Source of the DNA: Persicimonas caeni
Lineage (GTDB): Bacteria; Myxococcota_A; Bradymonadia; Bradymonadales; Bradymonadaceae
Direction: 5' to 3'
Length of the DNA stretch: 64,000 nt
NCBI RefSeq assembly: GCF_006517175.1
Contig: NZ_CP041186.1
Location: 7,157,074-7,221,073, forward strand
Shown: piece by piece, positions 7,870 through 16,669 of the stretch
Numbering within the stretch: the first letter of the stretch is position 1
Layout of the letters: every line of letters starts with the position of its first letter
Translations under genes and position numbers: made by a program
The notes under the pieces: generated by a model
Told to the model about the DNA's origin: nothing
The model's input: only the letters and a program-made list of their open reading frames with translations
Databases searched by the model: none

Positions 7870-9921
7870 ATGGCCTCAGATCGTTCGCAGATGCACGAGT
7901 ATTCTCCCGCGCGCCTGGTCGACTCGTTCGTCGAGCCGGGCAGCGTCGTCCTCTTTGTCGGCCGCCCCGGCAGCGGTAAGTCGACGCTGATGACGCGCAT
8001 GGCGGATATCCTCGCCTCGCGCGACCAGCGCTTTCGAGCGATCTGCGCCGACCCGGGAAGCCCCGTCTTCGGGCCGCCGGGGGCCGTATCCCTGGCCGGG
8101 CGCGCCGATGAGGAGTGGTCGCTCGAGCGCCTCGAAGCGCTGGCCACGCTAAACGCCGGGCGATACCGACTGCCCGTCGTCACCGCCGTCCATAGGCTCA
8201 ATCATCATCGGCTGACTGAACAGGTCGACGAGCAGACGCTGCTCGTCGACGCCCCGGGAGTCCATCGCGGCGTGGCCGCGCGCGAACTCTTACCGGCGCT
8301 CGCCGAGGCGTGCGGGGCGACGACGGCCATCGTACTCGCACCGGGCGCCGACGAGCCCGACGCGCTCGATGACCTGCGCGCGCTGGGCGTGCGCTGTGTG
8401 CACGTCCGACCTTCCCCGCATGCTTCTTCTGCCACGGGCAACCAACGCGCCGAGGCGCGCACCGCCCGCTGGGACGCCTACCTGCAAGACGCGACTACGA
8501 TTCGCCTCGCCGCCGGTTTGCCTGTGACGGGCAGCCACCCGTCGCTCGACGACGCGCCCGCGTGGCCGGGTCGTCAACTCGGCCTGCTCGACGGGCAGGG
8601 CCGCACACTCGCCCTCGCCGAAATCGCCAAGTTCAACGGGGTCGAGTTCGTCTTGCGCGCGCCCCCCGTCGAGGTCGACCGCATCGCCGGCTTGGTGGCC
8701 CGTGACGCCCGCCGAAACGACCGCGGCCAGCTGCGCACCGCGTCCGACGCGACGAGCTCCGAGGCGCTGACCGCCAACGAGCCGGCCAGAGCGGTGCGCC
8801 TTGGCCCGGCCTTCGAGCAGCGCCCGCGCCCGATCATCGAAGTCGACCCGGGTGGAGCGATGTCGGCGCGCATCAGCTTTGCCGACGTCACCGTGGTCGG
8901 CGGCCTCTTCGAGGACCCCTGCGTGTATGCGCGTTTTCGGCATGGCAAGCGAGGGTTGCTCTTCGACATGGGCGAAGTGGGGCGGATGCCTCCCAAGCTT
9001 CTCCACCGCGTCTCCGACGCCTTCGTGACCCACGCTCACTTCGATCATTTCGCCGGCTTCGTCGACCTGGTGCGTCGCTGGGTGCACGTCAACGACACGT
9101 GCCGAGTTTGGGGGCCTCCGGGGCTGGCCGATCAGGTCGAGGCGATGGTGGGAGCCTTTACCTGGGACCGCATCGGCGAAGGGGAGGGCCCGACCTTTGT
9201 GGTGGGCGAGCTCGACGGCGACGAGCTTCGCCGCACCCGCATCGAGGCGGCCATCGGCGCGCGCGAGGACCTGGGCGTCGAGACGATCGAGGACGGCGAG
9301 TTGCTCGTCGAGCCGCGCTTTCGCGTGCGCGCCTGCTCGGTGGAACACGGCACGACCGTGCTCGCCTACGCGCTCGAGGAGACGAGTAACTACGCGGTGC
9401 GCTCCGACCGCCTCGAGGGGCGCTACGCGCCGGGCGATTGGCTCGGCGAGCTCAAGCAGAAGGCGGCGGTGGGCGCCGACGACGACCTCGTGGAGCTTCG
9501 CGACGGTTCGACCGAAGCGGTGGGCCGACTCGCCGAGCGACTGCTCATCGAGCGCCCGGGCGACAAGATTGTCTACGCGACCGACTTTGCAGATACCCAG
9601 ACCAACCGCGAGCGCATCATATCTTTGGCGCAGGGGGCCAAGGTGCTCATCTGCGAGGCGTCCTTTCGACGCGACGACGCCGAGATCGCCGAGATGGCAC
9701 GGCACCTGACGACGAAGGCCTGCGCGGAGATCGCCCGCGAGGCCAACGTCGAGCGGCTGGTGCCGTTTCATTTCTCGGCGCGCTACGAAGAGGCACCGGA
9801 GCTGCTGTACGCCGAGATTCTGGAGGTATTCCCAGACGTCATCATCCCGGCAGCCATTGCGCGGCGGTTGCGCTCTCAACTTCCTCAGACCAGCGAACGA
9901 GAGAGGACCGAACATGCCTGA
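7870..9921 (+). CDS. Fusion of a Clp1/Grc3-like polynucleotide kinase and an RNase Z-like metallo-beta-lactamase nuclease
   Basis: The 683-residue protein has two parts. Residues about 15-290 look like the P-loop domain of Clp1/Grc3 polynucleotide 5'-hydroxyl kinases: Walker A GRPGSGKST (31-39), a strand ending CADPGSP followed by PGAVSL, a second conserved segment LLVDAPGVHRG, and an Arg-containing EARTARWDAYL near the expected lid. Residues about 335-675 look like RNase Z: THAHFDHFAG with metal ligands His388, His390, Asp392 and His393, then YATDFADT, EASF, HLTTKACAEIA and a late LVPFHFSARY. This suggests an enzyme that processes and 5'-phosphorylates RNA in the cytosol, which is inference. 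The gene starts 47 bp after the glucosidase gene, and its last 8 bp overlap the aminotransferase gene, so translational coupling is likely. The domain assignment is fairly secure; the physiological RNA is unknown. Confidence 0.78.
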   Translation: MASDRSQMHEYSPARLVDSFVEPGSVVLFVGRPGSGKSTLMTRMADILASRDQRFRAICADPGSPVFGPPGAVSLAGRADEEWSLERLEALATLNAGRYRLPVVTAVHRLNHHRLTEQVDEQTLLVDAPGVHRGVAARELLPALAEACGATTAIVLAPGADEPDALDDLRALGVRCVHVRPSPHASSATGNQRAEARTARWDAYLQDATTIRLAAGLPVTGSHPSLDDAPAWPGRQLGLLDGQGRTLALAEIAKFNGVEFVLRAPPVEVDRIAGLVARDARRNDRGQLRTASDATSSEALTANEPARAVRLGPAFEQRPRPIIEVDPGGAMSARISFADVTVVGGLFEDPCVYARFRHGKRGLLFDMGEVGRMPPKLLHRVSDAFVTHAHFDHFAGFVDLVRRWVHVNDTCRVWGPPGLADQVEAMVGAFTWDRIGEGEGPTFVVGELDGDELRRTRIEAAIGAREDLGVETIEDGELLVEPRFRVRACSVEHGTTVLAYALEETSNYAVRSDRLEGRYAPGDWLGELKQKAAVGADDDLVELRDGSTEAVGRLAERLLIERPGDKIVYATDFADTQTNRERIISLAQGAKVLICEASFRRDDAEIAEMARHLTTKACAEIAREANVERLVPFHFSARYEEAPELLYAEILEVFPDVIIPAAIARRLRSQLPQTSERERTEHA

Positions 9922-10777
9922 ACTCGCCTACCTCAACGAAATGATCGTACCCGTCGACGAGGCCAAAGTGCCCGTTCGAGACCGAGGTTTCATCTTCGGC
10001 GACGGGGTGTACGACGTCGCGCGGGTCTATGACGTCCGCCCCCACCGCCTGGGCGCGCATATCGAGCGACTGCGCCGGTGCGCCAGGCAGATCGAGCTGT
10101 GCGACATTCCCTCCGAGGCCGACCTCGAGCGTATCGTCGACGAACTCCTCGACGCGTCGGGGCTGAGCGACGCGATGCTCTACATGCAGCTCACCCGCGG
10201 TGCCGCGCCGCGCAAATCGGCCTATCCGGCCGAGACCCCTGCCACGCTCTTCGTCAGCGTCGAGCGCGTGCGCCGCGGCGCCGACAAGTTTCGCGACACG
10301 GGCGTCGAGGCAATTTTGGTCGAGGATATCCGCTGGGACCGCAACGACATCAAATCAATCAACCTGTTGCCCAAGGTCTTGATGGGGCAGCGCGCTCACA
10401 AGGCCGGGGTCTACGAGGCGCTCTACCACGACGCCGACGGGCACGTGTGGGAGGGGACGAGCACCAATCTCTTCGCCATCATCGACGGCGCGCTCCAAAC
10501 GGCGCCGGAGGGGCCGAGGATTCTGTCGGGCACGACGCGACGTGACGTGCTCGAGTTGGCCGAGCGGCTCGGCTACGACTGCGAGCTTCGCCCGCTGACC
10601 GAAGAGCAACTGCGCTCGGCCGACGAACTCTTCGTCACCGGCACGCTCACCGAGGTGCAGGGCCTCGTAGCAGTCGACGGCACCGCCGTCGGCTCGGGCG
10701 AGGTCGGCTCGATCACGCGCGAGTTCCAAGAGGCGTACGACGAGTTGGTCGAGGATCGCCTGCGACAAATGTCATGA
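9914..10777 (+). CDS. dat: D-amino acid aminotransferase (class IV, PLP-dependent)
   Basis: The start is ATG 9914, preceded by a GAGAGG-type ribosome binding site at about 9899-9906 and overlapping the previous stop by 8 bp. The 287-residue length fits D-alanine aminotransferases. The N-terminus has VPVRDRGFIFGDGVYDVARVYD. The PLP Schiff-base lysine is expected at Lys147 in DIKSINLL, a signature closer to D-alanine aminotransferase than to branched-chain enzymes. WEGTSTNLFAI, SGTTRRDVLELA and ELFVTGTLTEVQG complete the fold-type IV pattern. The enzyme would interconvert D-amino acids and 2-oxo acids, feeding D-Ala/D-Glu for peptidoglycan or scavenging D-amino acids. Its stop overlaps the start of the permease gene by 4 bp (ATGA). 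A branched-chain or 4-amino-4-deoxychorismate lyase role is less likely. Confidence 0.85.
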   Translation: MPELAYLNEMIVPVDEAKVPVRDRGFIFGDGVYDVARVYDVRPHRLGAHIERLRRCARQIELCDIPSEADLERIVDELLDASGLSDAMLYMQLTRGAAPRKSAYPAETPATLFVSVERVRRGADKFRDTGVEAILVEDIRWDRNDIKSINLLPKVLMGQRAHKAGVYEALYHDADGHVWEGTSTNLFAIIDGALQTAPEGPRILSGTTRRDVLELAERLGYDCELRPLTEEQLRSADELFVTGTLTEVQGLVAVDGTAVGSGEVGSITREFQEAYDELVEDRLRQMS

Positions 10778-12570
10778 CCACCGGCATGCTCATCGTGTTG
10801 GTCATCGTGGCGGTGGCCGTCGTGCTCTTCGTGTTCGAGCCGGTTCCCATCGACGTCACCGCGTTGCTGGTGCTCGTCCTGCTGGTACTGCTCGAGCCGT
10901 GGACGCAGATCGGACCCCTGGAGGCCGTCTCCGGGTTCTCCAACCCCGCCACCATCACCGTCTTGGCGATGCTGATCCTGAGCGAGGGCGTGCGCCGCAC
11001 CGGCGTAGTCGAGAGCCTGGGGCGTCGACTCAGCAAAGTGGTGAACACGAGCGAGCGGCGCCACCTGGCCGCCACCATCGGCATGTCGGGGCCCATCTCC
11101 GGCTTGATGAACAACACTCCGGTCGTCGCGCTGCTGATGCCGGTGGTCAACGACATGGCCCACAAGGCCAAGATCTCGCCGTCGAAGCTGCTCCTGCCTC
11201 TGTCGTACGCCTCGATGCTCGGCGGCATGCTCACCCTCATCGGCACCTCGACGAATATCCTCGCCTCCGACCTGTCCGCGCGTCTGCTGGACCACCGCAT
11301 GGGGATGTTCGAGTTCACCCATCTCGGCCTCATCGTGCTCGTCGTGGGCGCCGTGTACCTGATCTTTGCTGCGCCAAAGCTATTGCCCGAGCGCATCAAG
11401 CCCCGGGAGGATTATCTCGAGGAGTACGCCGTCGGGCCTTATCTGACGGAGGTCTGCGTAGGTGAAGACGCGCCGATGATCGGCCTGCGGGTGGGGAAGT
11501 GGCTCGAGATCCAGAAGCTGCGCGTCGACGTGCTCGCCTTGATTCGAGGCGACGAGAAATACGACCACCCGTATCGCGATAACACCCTTCAGCCGGGCGA
11601 TATGCTCCTGGTGCACGCCAGCCGGCGCCGCCTCGACGAGCTGATGGCCGTCGAAGGCATCGACGCGCTCACCTCCCCGGAGCTGACGCCCGACGAAATC
11701 ATCACCGCGGGCGACTTCAACAGCGTCGTCGAACTCGTCATCCCCTCCGGGTCGCGCCTCGAGGGGCAGGCGGTCGCCGAGTCGAAGATCGCCGAACGCT
11801 TCGACGCCTTTATCCTGGCCATTCGACGCGGCGGCGAGACCATCCGAGAGCGTCTCAGCCGCCAGACCTTGGCCGGCGGCGATACGCTGTTGGTGCAGAC
11901 GACCCCCGAGGGCGTCGAGACGATGCAGCGAAGCCAGGACGTCGTCGTGCTCGTCAAGCAGGAGCGCGAGGCGTTCCGGCGAGAGAAGCGCCCGTGGATG
12001 TACGCTATTATCCTCGGCGTCATCGGCTTTGCAGCCGCAGACCTCGTCCCCATCGTCGTCAGCGCACTCGCCGGCGTCGTCGCCATGGTGCTGACCGGCG
12101 TGCTTCGCCCCTCCGAGATGTACGCCGCGGTCGACTGGCGCGTGATCTTCTTACTCGCCGGCATCATCCCGCTGGGCATCGCGCTCGAACAAACCGGCAC
12201 CGCTTCGTACTTGGGCCAACTGCTCGCCTCCAGCGCCTATGTCCTGCCCACGATCGTCGTCCTCTGGCTCTTCTACATCGCCACCGGACTGATCACCGAG
12301 GTCATCAGCAACAACGCCAGCGTCCTGTTGATGATCCCGGTCGCCGTCGAGACCGCCGGCTATATCGACGCCAACCCCTTCGCCTTCGTCCTGGCGGTGA
12401 TGTTCGCCGCGAGTACCGCATTCTTGGGGCCGGTCGGCTACCAGACCAACTTGTTCGTGTATGGGCCGGGCGGCTACCGCGTAAGCGACTTCGTGCGTTT
12501 GGGCGCGCCCCTGCAGTTGGTGATGTCGGTGGTGACCGTCGGCGGCATTGCGTTGTTTTGGGGGGTGTAA
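10774..12570 (+). CDS. SLC13/DASS-type permease with two TrkA-C (RCK_C) domains
   Basis: The 598-residue inner-membrane protein has hydrophobic helices at both ends and a central cytosolic part (about 210-400). The two copies of the SLC13 signature are visible: SGLMNNTPVV (Asn113-Asn114-Thr115-Pro116) and ITEVISNNASVLLM (Asn513-Asn514). The central segment contains two RCK_C-like repeats, recognisable by GLRVGKWLEIQKLRVDVLALIRG with NTLQPGDMLLVHAS, and by LEGQAVAESKIAERFDAFILA with LAGGDTLLVQTT. These domains usually sense ligands or gate transport. The substrate may be a dicarboxylate, sulfate or another anion and cannot be assigned. It is translationally coupled to the aminotransferase through a 4-bp overlap and probably closes the operon. 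Confidence 0.88.
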   Translation: MTTGMLIVLVIVAVAVVLFVFEPVPIDVTALLVLVLLVLLEPWTQIGPLEAVSGFSNPATITVLAMLILSEGVRRTGVVESLGRRLSKVVNTSERRHLAATIGMSGPISGLMNNTPVVALLMPVVNDMAHKAKISPSKLLLPLSYASMLGGMLTLIGTSTNILASDLSARLLDHRMGMFEFTHLGLIVLVVGAVYLIFAAPKLLPERIKPREDYLEEYAVGPYLTEVCVGEDAPMIGLRVGKWLEIQKLRVDVLALIRGDEKYDHPYRDNTLQPGDMLLVHASRRRLDELMAVEGIDALTSPELTPDEIITAGDFNSVVELVIPSGSRLEGQAVAESKIAERFDAFILAIRRGGETIRERLSRQTLAGGDTLLVQTTPEGVETMQRSQDVVVLVKQEREAFRREKRPWMYAIILGVIGFAAADLVPIVVSALAGVVAMVLTGVLRPSEMYAAVDWRVIFLLAGIIPLGIALEQTGTASYLGQLLASSAYVLPTIVVLWLFYIATGLITEVISNNASVLLMIPVAVETAGYIDANPFAFVLAVMFAASTAFLGPVGYQTNLFVYGPGGYRVSDFVRLGAPLQLVMSVVTVGGIALFWGV

Positions 12571-13500: not shown

Positions 13501-13726
13501 CGCCCCCCTCCTTGCCTCACCCCCACAATCTCGCACAATGGACCCACTTCGCAGCATGTAGGGACCGTTGTTCGCGCTCAAAAATGACTCCCCGGAAGCC
13601 TCCGAGTCCTATACGCTCGACCTATCTCAATTGATGCCGCCGCTGAGCGCCATCTACCAGCCCTCGCGCGATCCTGCGCCGAACTCCGACCCCGAGCCGG
13701 TCGAGGCGTTCGCTTGCGCTGGACAT

Positions 13727-13764
13727 GAAAAACCCCGACTCGATGTGCCGAGTCGGGGATTTTT
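13727..13764. terminator. Strong symmetric intrinsic terminator
   Basis: A perfect 10-bp stem (CCCCGACTCG at 13733-13742 with CGAGTCGGGG at 13749-13758) has a 6-nt loop. It is preceded by GAAAAA and followed by ATTTTT, so it can work on either strand. It lies between the convergent permease (ending 12570) and STAND regulator (ending 14126) genes. Confidence 0.8.
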
Positions 13765-13777
13765 GTGTCGAGAACAG

Positions 13778-14030
13778 CAACCCGACACGTCCGGTTGCTG
13801 TTTCTTCGCCGTTAGAACGCCAACCGGACGTGTCGTGCCGGGGTTTTTCGACGCCAGAAGGCCAACCGGACGTGTCGTGCCGGGGTTTTTCAACGCCAGA
13901 AGGCCAACCGGACGTGTCGTGCCGGGGTTTTTCAACGCCAGAAGGCCAACCGGACGTGTCGTGCCGGGGTTTTTCAACGCCAGAGCATCAACCCGACATG
14001 TCGTGCAGCAGTTTTGGCGGCTCGAGAACC
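13778..14030 (+). repeat. 42-bp tandem array of terminator-like hairpins
   Basis: Units start at about 13778, 13821, 13863, 13905, 13947 and 13989. The middle four are nearly identical and exactly 42 bp apart; the outer two are degenerate. Each good unit begins CAACCGGACGTGTCGTGCCG and continues GGGTTTTTC. CCGGACG and CGT(G)CCGG can pair around a TGT loop with one bulged G, and are followed by GG and five T. Each unit therefore resembles an intrinsic terminator for plus-strand transcripts. Because 42 is a multiple of three, all frames read through it, giving 14-residue pseudo-repeats that I do not regard as coding. Confidence 0.8.
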
Positions 14031-14125
14031 TCCACCCGACACAAGAACCACGTGAAACGACTCCACCGGCATCCGGCGACCGACACCCGGAACCGTGATC
14101 GGCACCAACTCTCCTATCCACGGCC

Positions 14126-16669
14126 TCACTGCCAGCGAACCACCACCGACTCGTCGACGAAATAACCCTCGTCGTCAGTGCGGATAGCCTCTTCGAGGCC
14201 GAGGCCGCGCAGTCGGCTCATTGTCGTGTAGACGCGGTTGGTGCCGGCCTCCACCGAGACCGTGTCGTCGGGCCAGCCGGCGTCGAGAAGCTCGAAGGTG
14301 GTCGAGCGGGTGCCGGGGGCGTCGAGGTGGGTGCGGGCGAGGTGCAAGAGTAGGCGTCGCATCGAGCCGCGCCGCGACAGGTCGACGCGCTCGCCGCCGT
14401 CGAAGACGAACCACCGCGCCTGCTCGTCGAGCTCGAGGACCGGTCCGGTCGTCGGGGCCGGTGCGTCGTGCCATTGGGCGATGGTGCGGCGCAGTGACAG
14501 GCGCTGTACGCGATTGCCGCCGGCCGATTCCGACAGCATCGCCTCCTCGTCGAGCCGCGCTCGGGCGCGTCGCTCGAGACGCTCGGCCTGTGCGAGCTCG
14601 CCGCCTTCGCGTGCGTGTCGGGCTTCCAAAAGCCCGACCGCCGCCGCGGCCAGCGTGTATAACCCGTTGGGCTGGTCGGGCGCGCCGCCCTCGAGTCGCT
14701 TCCTCGCCTCGGCGAAGTTCCCGCGCACCGCGTGGACGATGGCCAAGCAGCTCTGCGCGGCGCTCAACGTCGAAAAGCCGCTCATCGACTCGCCGCGCGC
14801 TGACAGCTCGAGGGCGTCGCGGCACAGAGACTGAGCCTGGCCGACCTCGCCGCGCTCGAGGGCCAAGATGCCGCGGTCGAGCAGGGCGTTGGCGCGATAG
14901 CCCGCGTAGCCCTGCGCGTCGATGAGCTCGAGTTGCTCGGCGAAGAGTTCATCGGCGCGTTCCAGCTCACCTAACTCGAAGTACAGAAAGCCCGCGCAGC
15001 CGGGCACGGTCGGCTCGACCTGGCTCGGCGGGAGCTCGCGGTTGACCCGTACGCACCGCTCGAGCTCGTCGATGGCCGCGTCGGTCTCGCCCATATCGGC
15101 CAGGGCGAGCCCATACAGCGCGCGGGCGCGATTCGTCGCGGTGTCGTTTCCGGTGGGCTCGAGCAGGTCGAGGGCGCGGCGCAACAGGCGCGAGGCGGCC
15201 ACCAGGTCGCCCCCGTCTCGCTCGATGCGGCCGAGCTCGGTGCTGCACAGCCCGACGCCGTAGTCGAAGCCGAGTTCGCGGTAGGTCTGCAGTCCACGCT
15301 CGTAGGACTGTTGGGCGTCCGTCGCACGCCCGGCGACCGAGGCCAAATAGCCCTCCAGGTGCGCGAGCCACCCGGTCACGTGGCACGTGTCGACCCCGGC
15401 GAGCAGCGTCGAAGCGCGGTCTGCGAGAGCTTCGGCCTCCTCGAAGTCGCCGTCGACGATGGCCAGCGTGGCGCGAAGGTATGCGGCCTCCGCGCGGATC
15501 TCGCGGGATGCGGCGTCGCTCGCCGGAAGCTCGGACAGGACCTGGGCGGCCTCGTCGAAGGCGCGCCGGGCGATGAGCAGGTCGGCGAGTGCGACGCACA
15601 ACTCGTGGCCCAGTTGGGCGTCCTCGTCGTCGCGAAAGCGCGCATGGGCGGTCTGCAAGTTGGGCAGGTCGAGCGACATCGCCCGTCGGGCGGCCAAGTC
15701 GTCGACGCCCAGGCGCGTGGTTCGGTAAGTGTGTGCCGCGTCGGCGAAGAAGGCGGCGTGGCGGCGCTCCGCCGGCCGTGCGTCGCCGGCCTCCTGCAAC
15801 TGCATCTGGGCGAAGTCCCGCACGCTATTAAGGAACCTGTAGCGCACGGTATGCGACGCGGTCGGCTCGACGACCGAGAGCAAGGAGCGCTGCAGCAGGC
15901 GCTGGATCACGTCGAGCGTCGAGGGCCCCTGCGGGCCGGCGTTGACGACGTGCTCGGCGGCGTCGAGCGTAAAGCTTCCACGGAACACGCCGAGTTGAGC
16001 GGCGGTCGCCCGGGTCAGCTCGTCGAGCGTCTGCCAAGAGCCGGAGAGGGCGTCTCGGAGGCTTCGGCCGGCGTCGCTTGCGAGCAGGTCGAAGCGCCGG
16101 TCGAGGCGGTCGAGCATCTGTCGGGGCGTCAGAATGCTCGTGCGCGCCGCGGCGAGTTCGATGGCCAGCGGGAGACGGTCGAGCCCGTCGACGAGCGCGG
16201 CGATGGTGTCGAGGTTGGTGTCGTCGACGCGAAAGCCCGGGCGCCACTGCGCCGCCGCCTGCTCGAATAGGGCGATGGCCTCGTCGTGGGCGAGGACGTC
16301 GAGCGCGATGAGGTGTTGGTCGGGTGCGTGAAATCGGAAGCGGCCGGCCGTCAATACAGTCAGGCCCGGGAAGGCCTCGAGGCAGTGGGCGATATCGCCT
16401 GTGAGAGACTCGGAAGGCGCTCCGTCGATGTCGTCCAGGAACACGACTGTCTTGGTGCCGTGTGTGAGGCCGCCTTCGCTCGGCAGGCTCTCGAGCACCG
16501 TATCGAAGCCGAGCTCGTCGTCAGCGTCGAGCGCGGCCTCGGCCAGCCACGACTTCCCGACGCCCGGCGGGCCCACGAGGCTGACGAGGCGACTCGGGCC
16601 ACGCAGCGCGGCGCGAAGTTCGGCGAGTTCGCCGGTTCGAATGGAGGGGCTTGTCGTGGTCGTCGGCAT
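14126..16669 (-). CDS. STAND/NB-ARC-like ATPase regulator with TPRs and a C-terminal winged helix
   Basis: I prefer ATG 16669 as the start, giving 847 residues that begin MPTTTTSPSIRTGELAEL, a usual start for this class; a TTG at 16741 would add 24 residues and run over the repeats in the divergent promoter region. The NTPase has Walker A GPPGVGKS (33-40) and Walker B VVFLDDID. LDRLPLAIELAAARTSILTP is the classic motif of LuxR/AfsR-type STAND regulators. Residues about 330-750 are TPR-like helices. The C-terminal about 85 residues (MRRLLLHLARTHLDAPG, AGWPDDTV, NRVYTTMSRLRGLGL, TDDEGYFVDE) look like an OmpR/PhoB-type winged helix. The DNA-binding domain is therefore at the C-terminus, unlike in AfsR/SARP proteins. 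It is divergent from the secreted FG-GAP gene, its likely nearest target. The signal is unknown. Confidence 0.85.
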   Translation of the reverse strand: MPTTTTSPSIRTGELAELRAALRGPSRLVSLVGPPGVGKSWLAEAALDADDELGFDTVLESLPSEGGLTHGTKTVVFLDDIDGAPSESLTGDIAHCLEAFPGLTVLTAGRFRFHAPDQHLIALDVLAHDEAIALFEQAAAQWRPGFRVDDTNLDTIAALVDGLDRLPLAIELAAARTSILTPRQMLDRLDRRFDLLASDAGRSLRDALSGSWQTLDELTRATAAQLGVFRGSFTLDAAEHVVNAGPQGPSTLDVIQRLLQRSLLSVVEPTASHTVRYRFLNSVRDFAQMQLQEAGDARPAERRHAAFFADAAHTYRTTRLGVDDLAARRAMSLDLPNLQTAHARFRDDEDAQLGHELCVALADLLIARRAFDEAAQVLSELPASDAASREIRAEAAYLRATLAIVDGDFEEAEALADRASTLLAGVDTCHVTGWLAHLEGYLASVAGRATDAQQSYERGLQTYRELGFDYGVGLCSTELGRIERDGGDLVAASRLLRRALDLLEPTGNDTATNRARALYGLALADMGETDAAIDELERCVRVNRELPPSQVEPTVPGCAGFLYFELGELERADELFAEQLELIDAQGYAGYRANALLDRGILALERGEVGQAQSLCRDALELSARGESMSGFSTLSAAQSCLAIVHAVRGNFAEARKRLEGGAPDQPNGLYTLAAAAVGLLEARHAREGGELAQAERLERRARARLDEEAMLSESAGGNRVQRLSLRRTIAQWHDAPAPTTGPVLELDEQARWFVFDGGERVDLSRRGSMRRLLLHLARTHLDAPGTRSTTFELLDAGWPDDTVSVEAGTNRVYTTMSRLRGLGLEEAIRTDDEGYFVDESVVVRWQ

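Follow-up and report, generated by a model that had tools for sequence, protein, structure and literature searches.

What does a bacterial protein do that joins a Clp1/Grc3-like polynucleotide kinase to an RNase Z-like hydrolase in one chain? The question is raised by a gene in a 64,000-nucleotide stretch of the Persicimonas caeni genome (the window; positions 7,157,074 to 7,221,073 of a single contig of 8.05 Mb), which an earlier note had read from its letters as such a fusion. This reading is borne out by our analysis. The reading frame from 7870 to 9921 on the plus strand is open and continuous across both halves, and the encoded 683-aa protein matches Pfam CLP1_P in its N-terminal half (49.9 bits, against a curated cut-off of 26.6 for PF16575) and Lactamase_B_2 in its C-terminal half (55-57 bits, against 27). 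All of the motifs that the note had quoted are present: GRPGSGKST, DPGSP, HAHFDH, HLTTKACAEIA and FHFSARY at the positions listed below, PGAVSL at aa 70-75 and LLVDAPGVHRG at aa 124-134. A structure predicted from the single sequence had a mean pLDDT of 38.9 and was unusable. The gene and those downstream of it are arranged as follows.

7870..9921, plus strand: complete fused gene, kinase-like half followed by metallo-beta-lactamase (MBL) half, 683 codons plus stop
9914..10777, plus strand: class IV (D-amino-acid-type) aminotransferase; starts at ATG 9914, overlapping the fusion stop at 9919-9921
10774..12570, plus strand: CitMHS/DASS permease (SLC13) with TrkA_C domains; starts at ATG 10774, overlapping the aminotransferase stop at 10775-10777

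The combination of a Clp1-type domain and an RNase Z-like MBL domain in one chain is rare, and comparison with related proteins shows this fusion to be real and maintained under constraint. As to its function, we tentatively favor a bifunctional nucleic-acid end-processing enzyme, with a layout analogous to that of Pnkp and HD-Pnk, though at slightly less than even odds.

Distribution and neighborhood of the fusion

The frequency of the fusion and the identity of its linked genes, both raised in the earlier note, could be surveyed. Besides P. caeni (G000), the fusion is carried by a genome of the same family (G010; 675 aa, 34% identical to the P. caeni protein) and by another of the same class (G038; 555 aa, 47% identical), with the same domain order in each. 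This amounts to three of the 57 genomes of the class, in three genera and two families, and all three proteins score above the CLP1_P cut-off (49.9, 53.8, and 34.4 bits). A search of 379 genomes of the phylum for CLP1_P at E <=1e-5 returned G000 and G010 only and no unfused CLP1_P protein; it missed the G038 fusion, and the survey is therefore not exhaustive. A scan of genome contigs with the fusion protein, a poor test outside the phylum, gave one weak archaeal MBL match among the matches listed, and relatives of the fusion were not found in the viral contigs scanned. Chance, artefact, or misassembly as the origin of the fusion is rejected, as three independent genomes carry it. Because it occurs in three genera and two families, and because all surveyed CLP1_P matches are fused, the pairing is selected and not an accident of assembly. 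Site residues of both halves are invariant across the three diverged proteins (29-47% identity in the kinase half), and nucleotide binding and metal binding are thus both under constraint. The P. caeni protein is nearer to that of G038 than to that of G010, its own family member; since the fusion is also patchily distributed, it may have been transferred horizontally.

No neighboring genes are shared by the three fusion loci. In P. caeni, a glycogen-debranching enzyme is encoded upstream. The earlier note had singled out translational coupling to the aminotransferase and SLC13 permease; the overlaps are real, but the linkage is not kept at the G010 or G038 fusions. Since the linkage is not conserved and, of 21 genomes, G000 alone yielded a close aminotransferase homolog, this operon carries little functional information and was dropped as a clue. 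Near the G038 fusion are a tryptophan 2,3-dioxygenase, an HHH_8 protein, and, judged by eye, an Lhr-type helicase. In G010, RtcA and a YaeQ-like gene lie about 4 kb from the fusion (L044:1574-3225, G010:C53), and in G000, RtcA is paired with RtcB at a separate locus (C1:2,728,915-2,731,047). Elsewhere in the window, tandem copies of a unit (PTGRVVPGFFNARRP and variants like it) run through overlapping open reading frames on both strands at 13568-14165; this is probably a non-coding tandem repeat and not a gene. Beside the G010 fusion (L043:547-10645, G010:C53), proteins of 1352 and 1412 aa are encoded around a 538-aa HSP90/sacsin-type ATPase.

RtcA, RtcB, and a PF09414 RNA ligase are encoded in all three fusion genomes, compared to 25, 41, and 13, respectively, of the 57 genomes of the class. 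The co-occurrence of the ligase gives p 0.01, rising to about 0.15 among genomes of at least 6.5 Mb, and that of RtcA gives p of about 0.08. Co-occurrence as a functional link was rejected, as it is not significant when genome size is allowed for. In G000 and G010, an RNA ligase of 211-214 aa (PF09414) and an HD/AAA_33 protein form a two-gene unit (L093:5186-7066, corresponding to G000:C1 ~6,789,185-6,791,065, and L094:5268-7204 in G010:C104), which we take to resemble an HD-Pnk/ligase RNA repair pair. The G038 ligases adjoin different genes; one of them (L097:929-5763, G038:C86) is found beside genes judged by eye to encode HerA-like ATPase and SIR2-like proteins, a locus that is possibly a defence island.

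The kinase-like half

The following features were located in the N-terminal half, all on the plus strand.

7939..8487, plus strand: Clp1/Grc3-like P-loop domain, aa 24-206, by CLP1_P match and by hhalign to archaeal Clp1
7960..7986, plus strand: Walker A GRPGSGKST, aa 31-39; G31, G34, G36, K37, S38, and T39 invariant in all three fusions
8050..8064, plus strand: Walker B-type DPGSP, aa 61-65; catalytic D61 and P62, G63 invariant, Gln of DxGQ replaced by Ser
8146..8169, plus strand: fusion-specific TLNAGRYR, aa 93-100, replacing archaeal Clp1 VGxxSP; A96, R98, and R100 invariant
8248..8271, plus strand: DAPGVHRG, aa 127-134, corresponding to the clasp TxGW, with Val in place of Trp; D127, P129, G130, V131, R133, and G134 invariant
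8425..8484, plus strand: lid-like helix, aa 186-205, carrying R193 and R197 but lacking the first Arg of the lid motif
8575..8739, plus strand: region resembling the archaeal Clp1 C-terminal domain, aa 236-290, by hhalign (partly, to aa 266) and MAFFT alignment

The CLP1_P match covers aa 31-206 and nearly the complete profile (positions 1-187 of 188), with 47.3 bits for the whole protein and 49.9 for this half by itself. Other P-loop families in Pfam reach at most 27 bits on this half. When the N-terminal halves of all three fusions were combined in a profile, hhalign aligned it to that of 11 archaeal Clp1 proteins over 247 columns (Prob 99.5, E 3e-22), and the match extends, up to aa 266, into what is the C-terminal region in archaeal Clp1. 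As a control, an AAA_33-type HD kinase from the P. caeni genome aligned over 18 P-loop columns only (Prob 70). By these comparisons, the N-terminal half is a member of the Clp1/Grc3 family.

The published motifs of Clp1 are Walker A, a Walker B of the form [D/E]hhQ, the clasp [T/S/L]xGW, and the lid RxxxxR (PMC6777427). The fusions retain Walker A (GxxxxGK[S/T]) and the invariant catalytic Asp, and depart from the rest to varying degrees. At the Walker B Gln, position 64, the three proteins have Ser, Arg, and Gln, the Gln being found in G038 alone. The clasp reads APGV, TPGV, and APGV, and the TSP loop is absent from the fusions in the alignment with archaeal Clp1. In the lid, the first Arg is missing from all three proteins at the aligned position and the second, R193, is present in two; R197 is invariant. 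Two archaeal Clp1 proteins in the alignment (L067, L071) also lack the clasp Trp, and thus its loss alone does not exclude kinase activity. The claim that this half phosphorylates RNA 5'-OH ends is therefore uncertain: the retained Walker A and catalytic Asp make such an activity plausible, yet four features are altered, namely the Gln of Walker B, the clasp Trp, the TSP loop, and the first Arg of the lid. The bacterial Clp1 of T. scotoductus (Ts-Clp1) is a proven polynucleotide kinase (PMC6777427), and yeast Clp1 binds ATP and shows no RNA kinase activity (PMC3245249).

The yeast precedent frames the main rival to an end-processing enzyme, in which the P-loop half would have lost nucleic-acid kinase activity and become an ATP-binding regulatory or scaffold module controlling the MBL hydrolase. 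The four altered features speak for this reading, as does the greater divergence of the kinase half between G000 and G010 (29% identity, versus 41% for the MBL half). Against it, no change is seen in Walker A, the catalytic Asp, DxPGVxRG, or R197 among proteins that share 29-47% identity, and the clasp Trp can be missing from archaeal Clp1 as well. We regard conversion to a regulator as rather unlikely, if deserving of serious consideration.

The metallo-beta-lactamase half

The features of the C-terminal half, also on the plus strand, are as follows.

8893..9849, plus strand: RNase Z-like MBL domain, aa 342-660, nearest to PRK02126 (273.7 bits)
9031..9048, plus strand: MBL motif II HAHFDH, aa 388-393; H388, H390, D392, and H393 invariant
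9346..9348, plus strand: MBL motif III His, H493, invariant
9376..9561, plus strand: flexible-arm (exosite) region, aa 503-564, with degenerate GP motif APGDWLG
9583..9585, plus strand: MBL motif IV Asp, D572, invariant
9652..9666, plus strand: HEAT-like CEASF, containing E596 of the proton-relay pair, invariant
9703..9714, plus strand: HST-like HLTT, containing H612 of the proton-relay pair, invariant (HLTTKACAEIA, aa 612-622)
9769..9786, plus strand: MBL motif V HFSARY; H634, S636, R638, and Y639 invariant (FHFSARY, aa 633-639)

The best model for this half is PRK02126 (NF002558, NCBIfam), at 271-274 bits in P. caeni; the three fusions score 273.7, 270.3, and 199.7 bits, all below its cut-off of 315. 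Among solved structures, phmmer places the RNase Z of B. subtilis nearest (1y44, E 6e-16). All three fusions retain MBL motifs I-V, motif I being represented by the invariant D366. The HEAT element varies as CEAS, CEAS, and LEAH and the HST element as HLT, HMC, and HLT, with the catalytic Glu and His kept. Stand-alone PRK02126-like proteins are encoded in four other genomes (G021, G035, G058, and G295), and plasmid-borne relatives occur in Methylocella, Rhizobium, Eleftheria, and others, none of them with a kinase half. In a Limimaricola variabilis plasmid (L055:5956-7605), a PRK02126-like MBL forms part of a larger protein whose annotation names a GXWXG domain; this subfamily therefore joins other partners too.

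The bacterial-type tRNase Z arm is about 55 aa long with a GP motif, GxPxGP (PMC3161902). A flexible arm is present in G000 and in G010 (PPGPWLG), with the GP motif as GWPPGP in G010 and in degenerate form, RYAPGD, in G000, but it is deleted in G038. Neither the three fusions nor the PRK02126 relatives aligned have PxKxRN, the CCA anti-determinant by which bacterial-type tRNase Z is defined; the fusions have LFEDP or LFGDP and a gap instead.

The families nearest to both halves are RNA enzymes, which argues against a substrate other than nucleic acid. Such a protein would combine a P-loop phosphotransferase with an MBL phosphodiesterase and have a small molecule, nucleotide, or protein as its substrate, for example in cyclic nucleotide turnover or deAMPylation. 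RNase Z has recently been reported to remove AMP from proteins (PMC12663964), making this less far-fetched, and the C-terminal half has a weak match to a cyclic nucleotide-degrading phosphodiesterase model (30-46 bits, far under the cut-off of 400). Amino-acid metabolism genes neighbor the fusion in G000 and G038, but the neighbors differ among genomes, so that no pathway is supported. We consider this alternative improbable.

The strict form of the initial reading, in which an endonuclease for tRNA 3' ends is joined to a 5'-kinase for RNA, has in its favor the intact MBL motifs, an arm of about bacterial tRNase Z length in G000 and G010, and the match to B. subtilis RNase Z, but it is very hard to sustain given the variant HEAT and HST elements and an RNase_Z equivalog score of 113.6 bits against a cut-off of 292.95, and a general role in tRNA 3' maturation is unlikely because PxKxRN is absent, the G038 arm is lost, and P. 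caeni encodes a separate canonical RNase Z (344.8 bits against the same cut-off).

A candidate end-processing enzyme and its relation to known systems

An enzyme of RNA end processing or repair, as first suggested for this locus, remains the best functional guess. The family of each half and the constraint on both sites are established, whereas catalysis by either half, a nucleic-acid substrate, and a healing role are inferred. In the preferred end-processing reading, the Clp1-like domain would bind ATP and transfer phosphate onto a 5'-OH end, while the RNase Z-like domain, with two metal ions, would hydrolyze a phosphodiester at the opposite end of the break, acting as a nuclease or as a cyclic or 3'-phosphoesterase. 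The target ends may be a 5'-OH with a 2',3'-cyclic phosphate or a frayed 3' end, as left by RNA-cleaving toxins or other nucleases, and the joint product would be a 5'-phosphate and a 3'-OH, as Pnkp and HD-Pnk produce via other domain pairs. Conservation of both halves, the archaeal Clp1 match, the kinase activity of Ts-Clp1, the co-presence of RtcA, RtcB, and ligase, and the proximity of RtcA in G010 were counted in favor of end processing. The altered kinase motifs and the yeast precedent were counted against it, as was the fact that G000 and G010 already own an RNA ligase/HD-kinase pair; no conserved neighbor ties the three loci to RNA repair. A more specific proposal is a new single-chain architecture for healing RNA (or DNA) ends, in which a Clp1-type 5'-kinase is paired with an RNase Z-like MBL 3'-phosphoesterase or nuclease and a TLxAxRYR-like loop and DxPGVxRG replace the canonical Clp1 RNA clasp. 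We put this forward as a possibility that is less likely than not.

Clp1-type kinases were found in 14 of 1,543 bacterial species in a 2019 survey, the main text of which makes no mention of a lactamase or RNase Z partner (PMC6777427). A description of a Clp1-RNase Z-like fusion, or of PRK02126 function, was not found in the open-licence literature searched, and an earlier description elsewhere is possible. The conserved pairing with an RNase Z-like hydrolase points to a candidate partner activity for these very rare bacterial kinases, so that a single protein would suffice to test the role of bacterial Clp1. A first lead on the role of the PRK02126 "RNase Z" proteins would follow as well.

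A comparison of the fusion with known systems shows both shared and distinct elements. Like Ts-Clp1 and P. horikoshii Clp1, it possesses the P-loop profile, Walker A, the catalytic Asp, a lid-like helix, and an archaeal-type C-terminal region; unlike these bacterial and archaeal proteins, it shows the four altered kinase features described above and carries an added MBL domain. With PRK02126 it shares a full-length match, the same MBL motifs, an LFxDP N-terminus, and a WLxxLK arm, whereas members of that family are usually stand-alone genes and the fusion scores below the family cut-off. Runella HD-Pnk and Clostridium Pnkp are end-healing enzymes that carry a 5'-kinase-type P-loop domain and a metal-dependent phosphoesterase in one chain, a layout that the fusion resembles. 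Their kinase is of the AAA_33 type and their phosphoesterase of the HD or calcineurin type, in contrast to the Clp1-type kinase-like domain and the MBL domain found here. In the eukaryotic Grc3-Las1 complex, a Clp1/Grc3 kinase works beside a nuclease as a separate subunit, and in the eukaryotic 3'-end machinery Clp1 is found alongside the MBL nuclease CPSF73, again as separate subunits, CPSF73 being a beta-CASP rather than an RNase Z-like protein. The fusion likewise pairs a Clp1/Grc3-type domain with a hydrolase, but does so in a single chain, and it would thus represent a one-chain bacterial counterpart of the eukaryotic Clp1/MBL-nuclease partnership in 3'-end processing.
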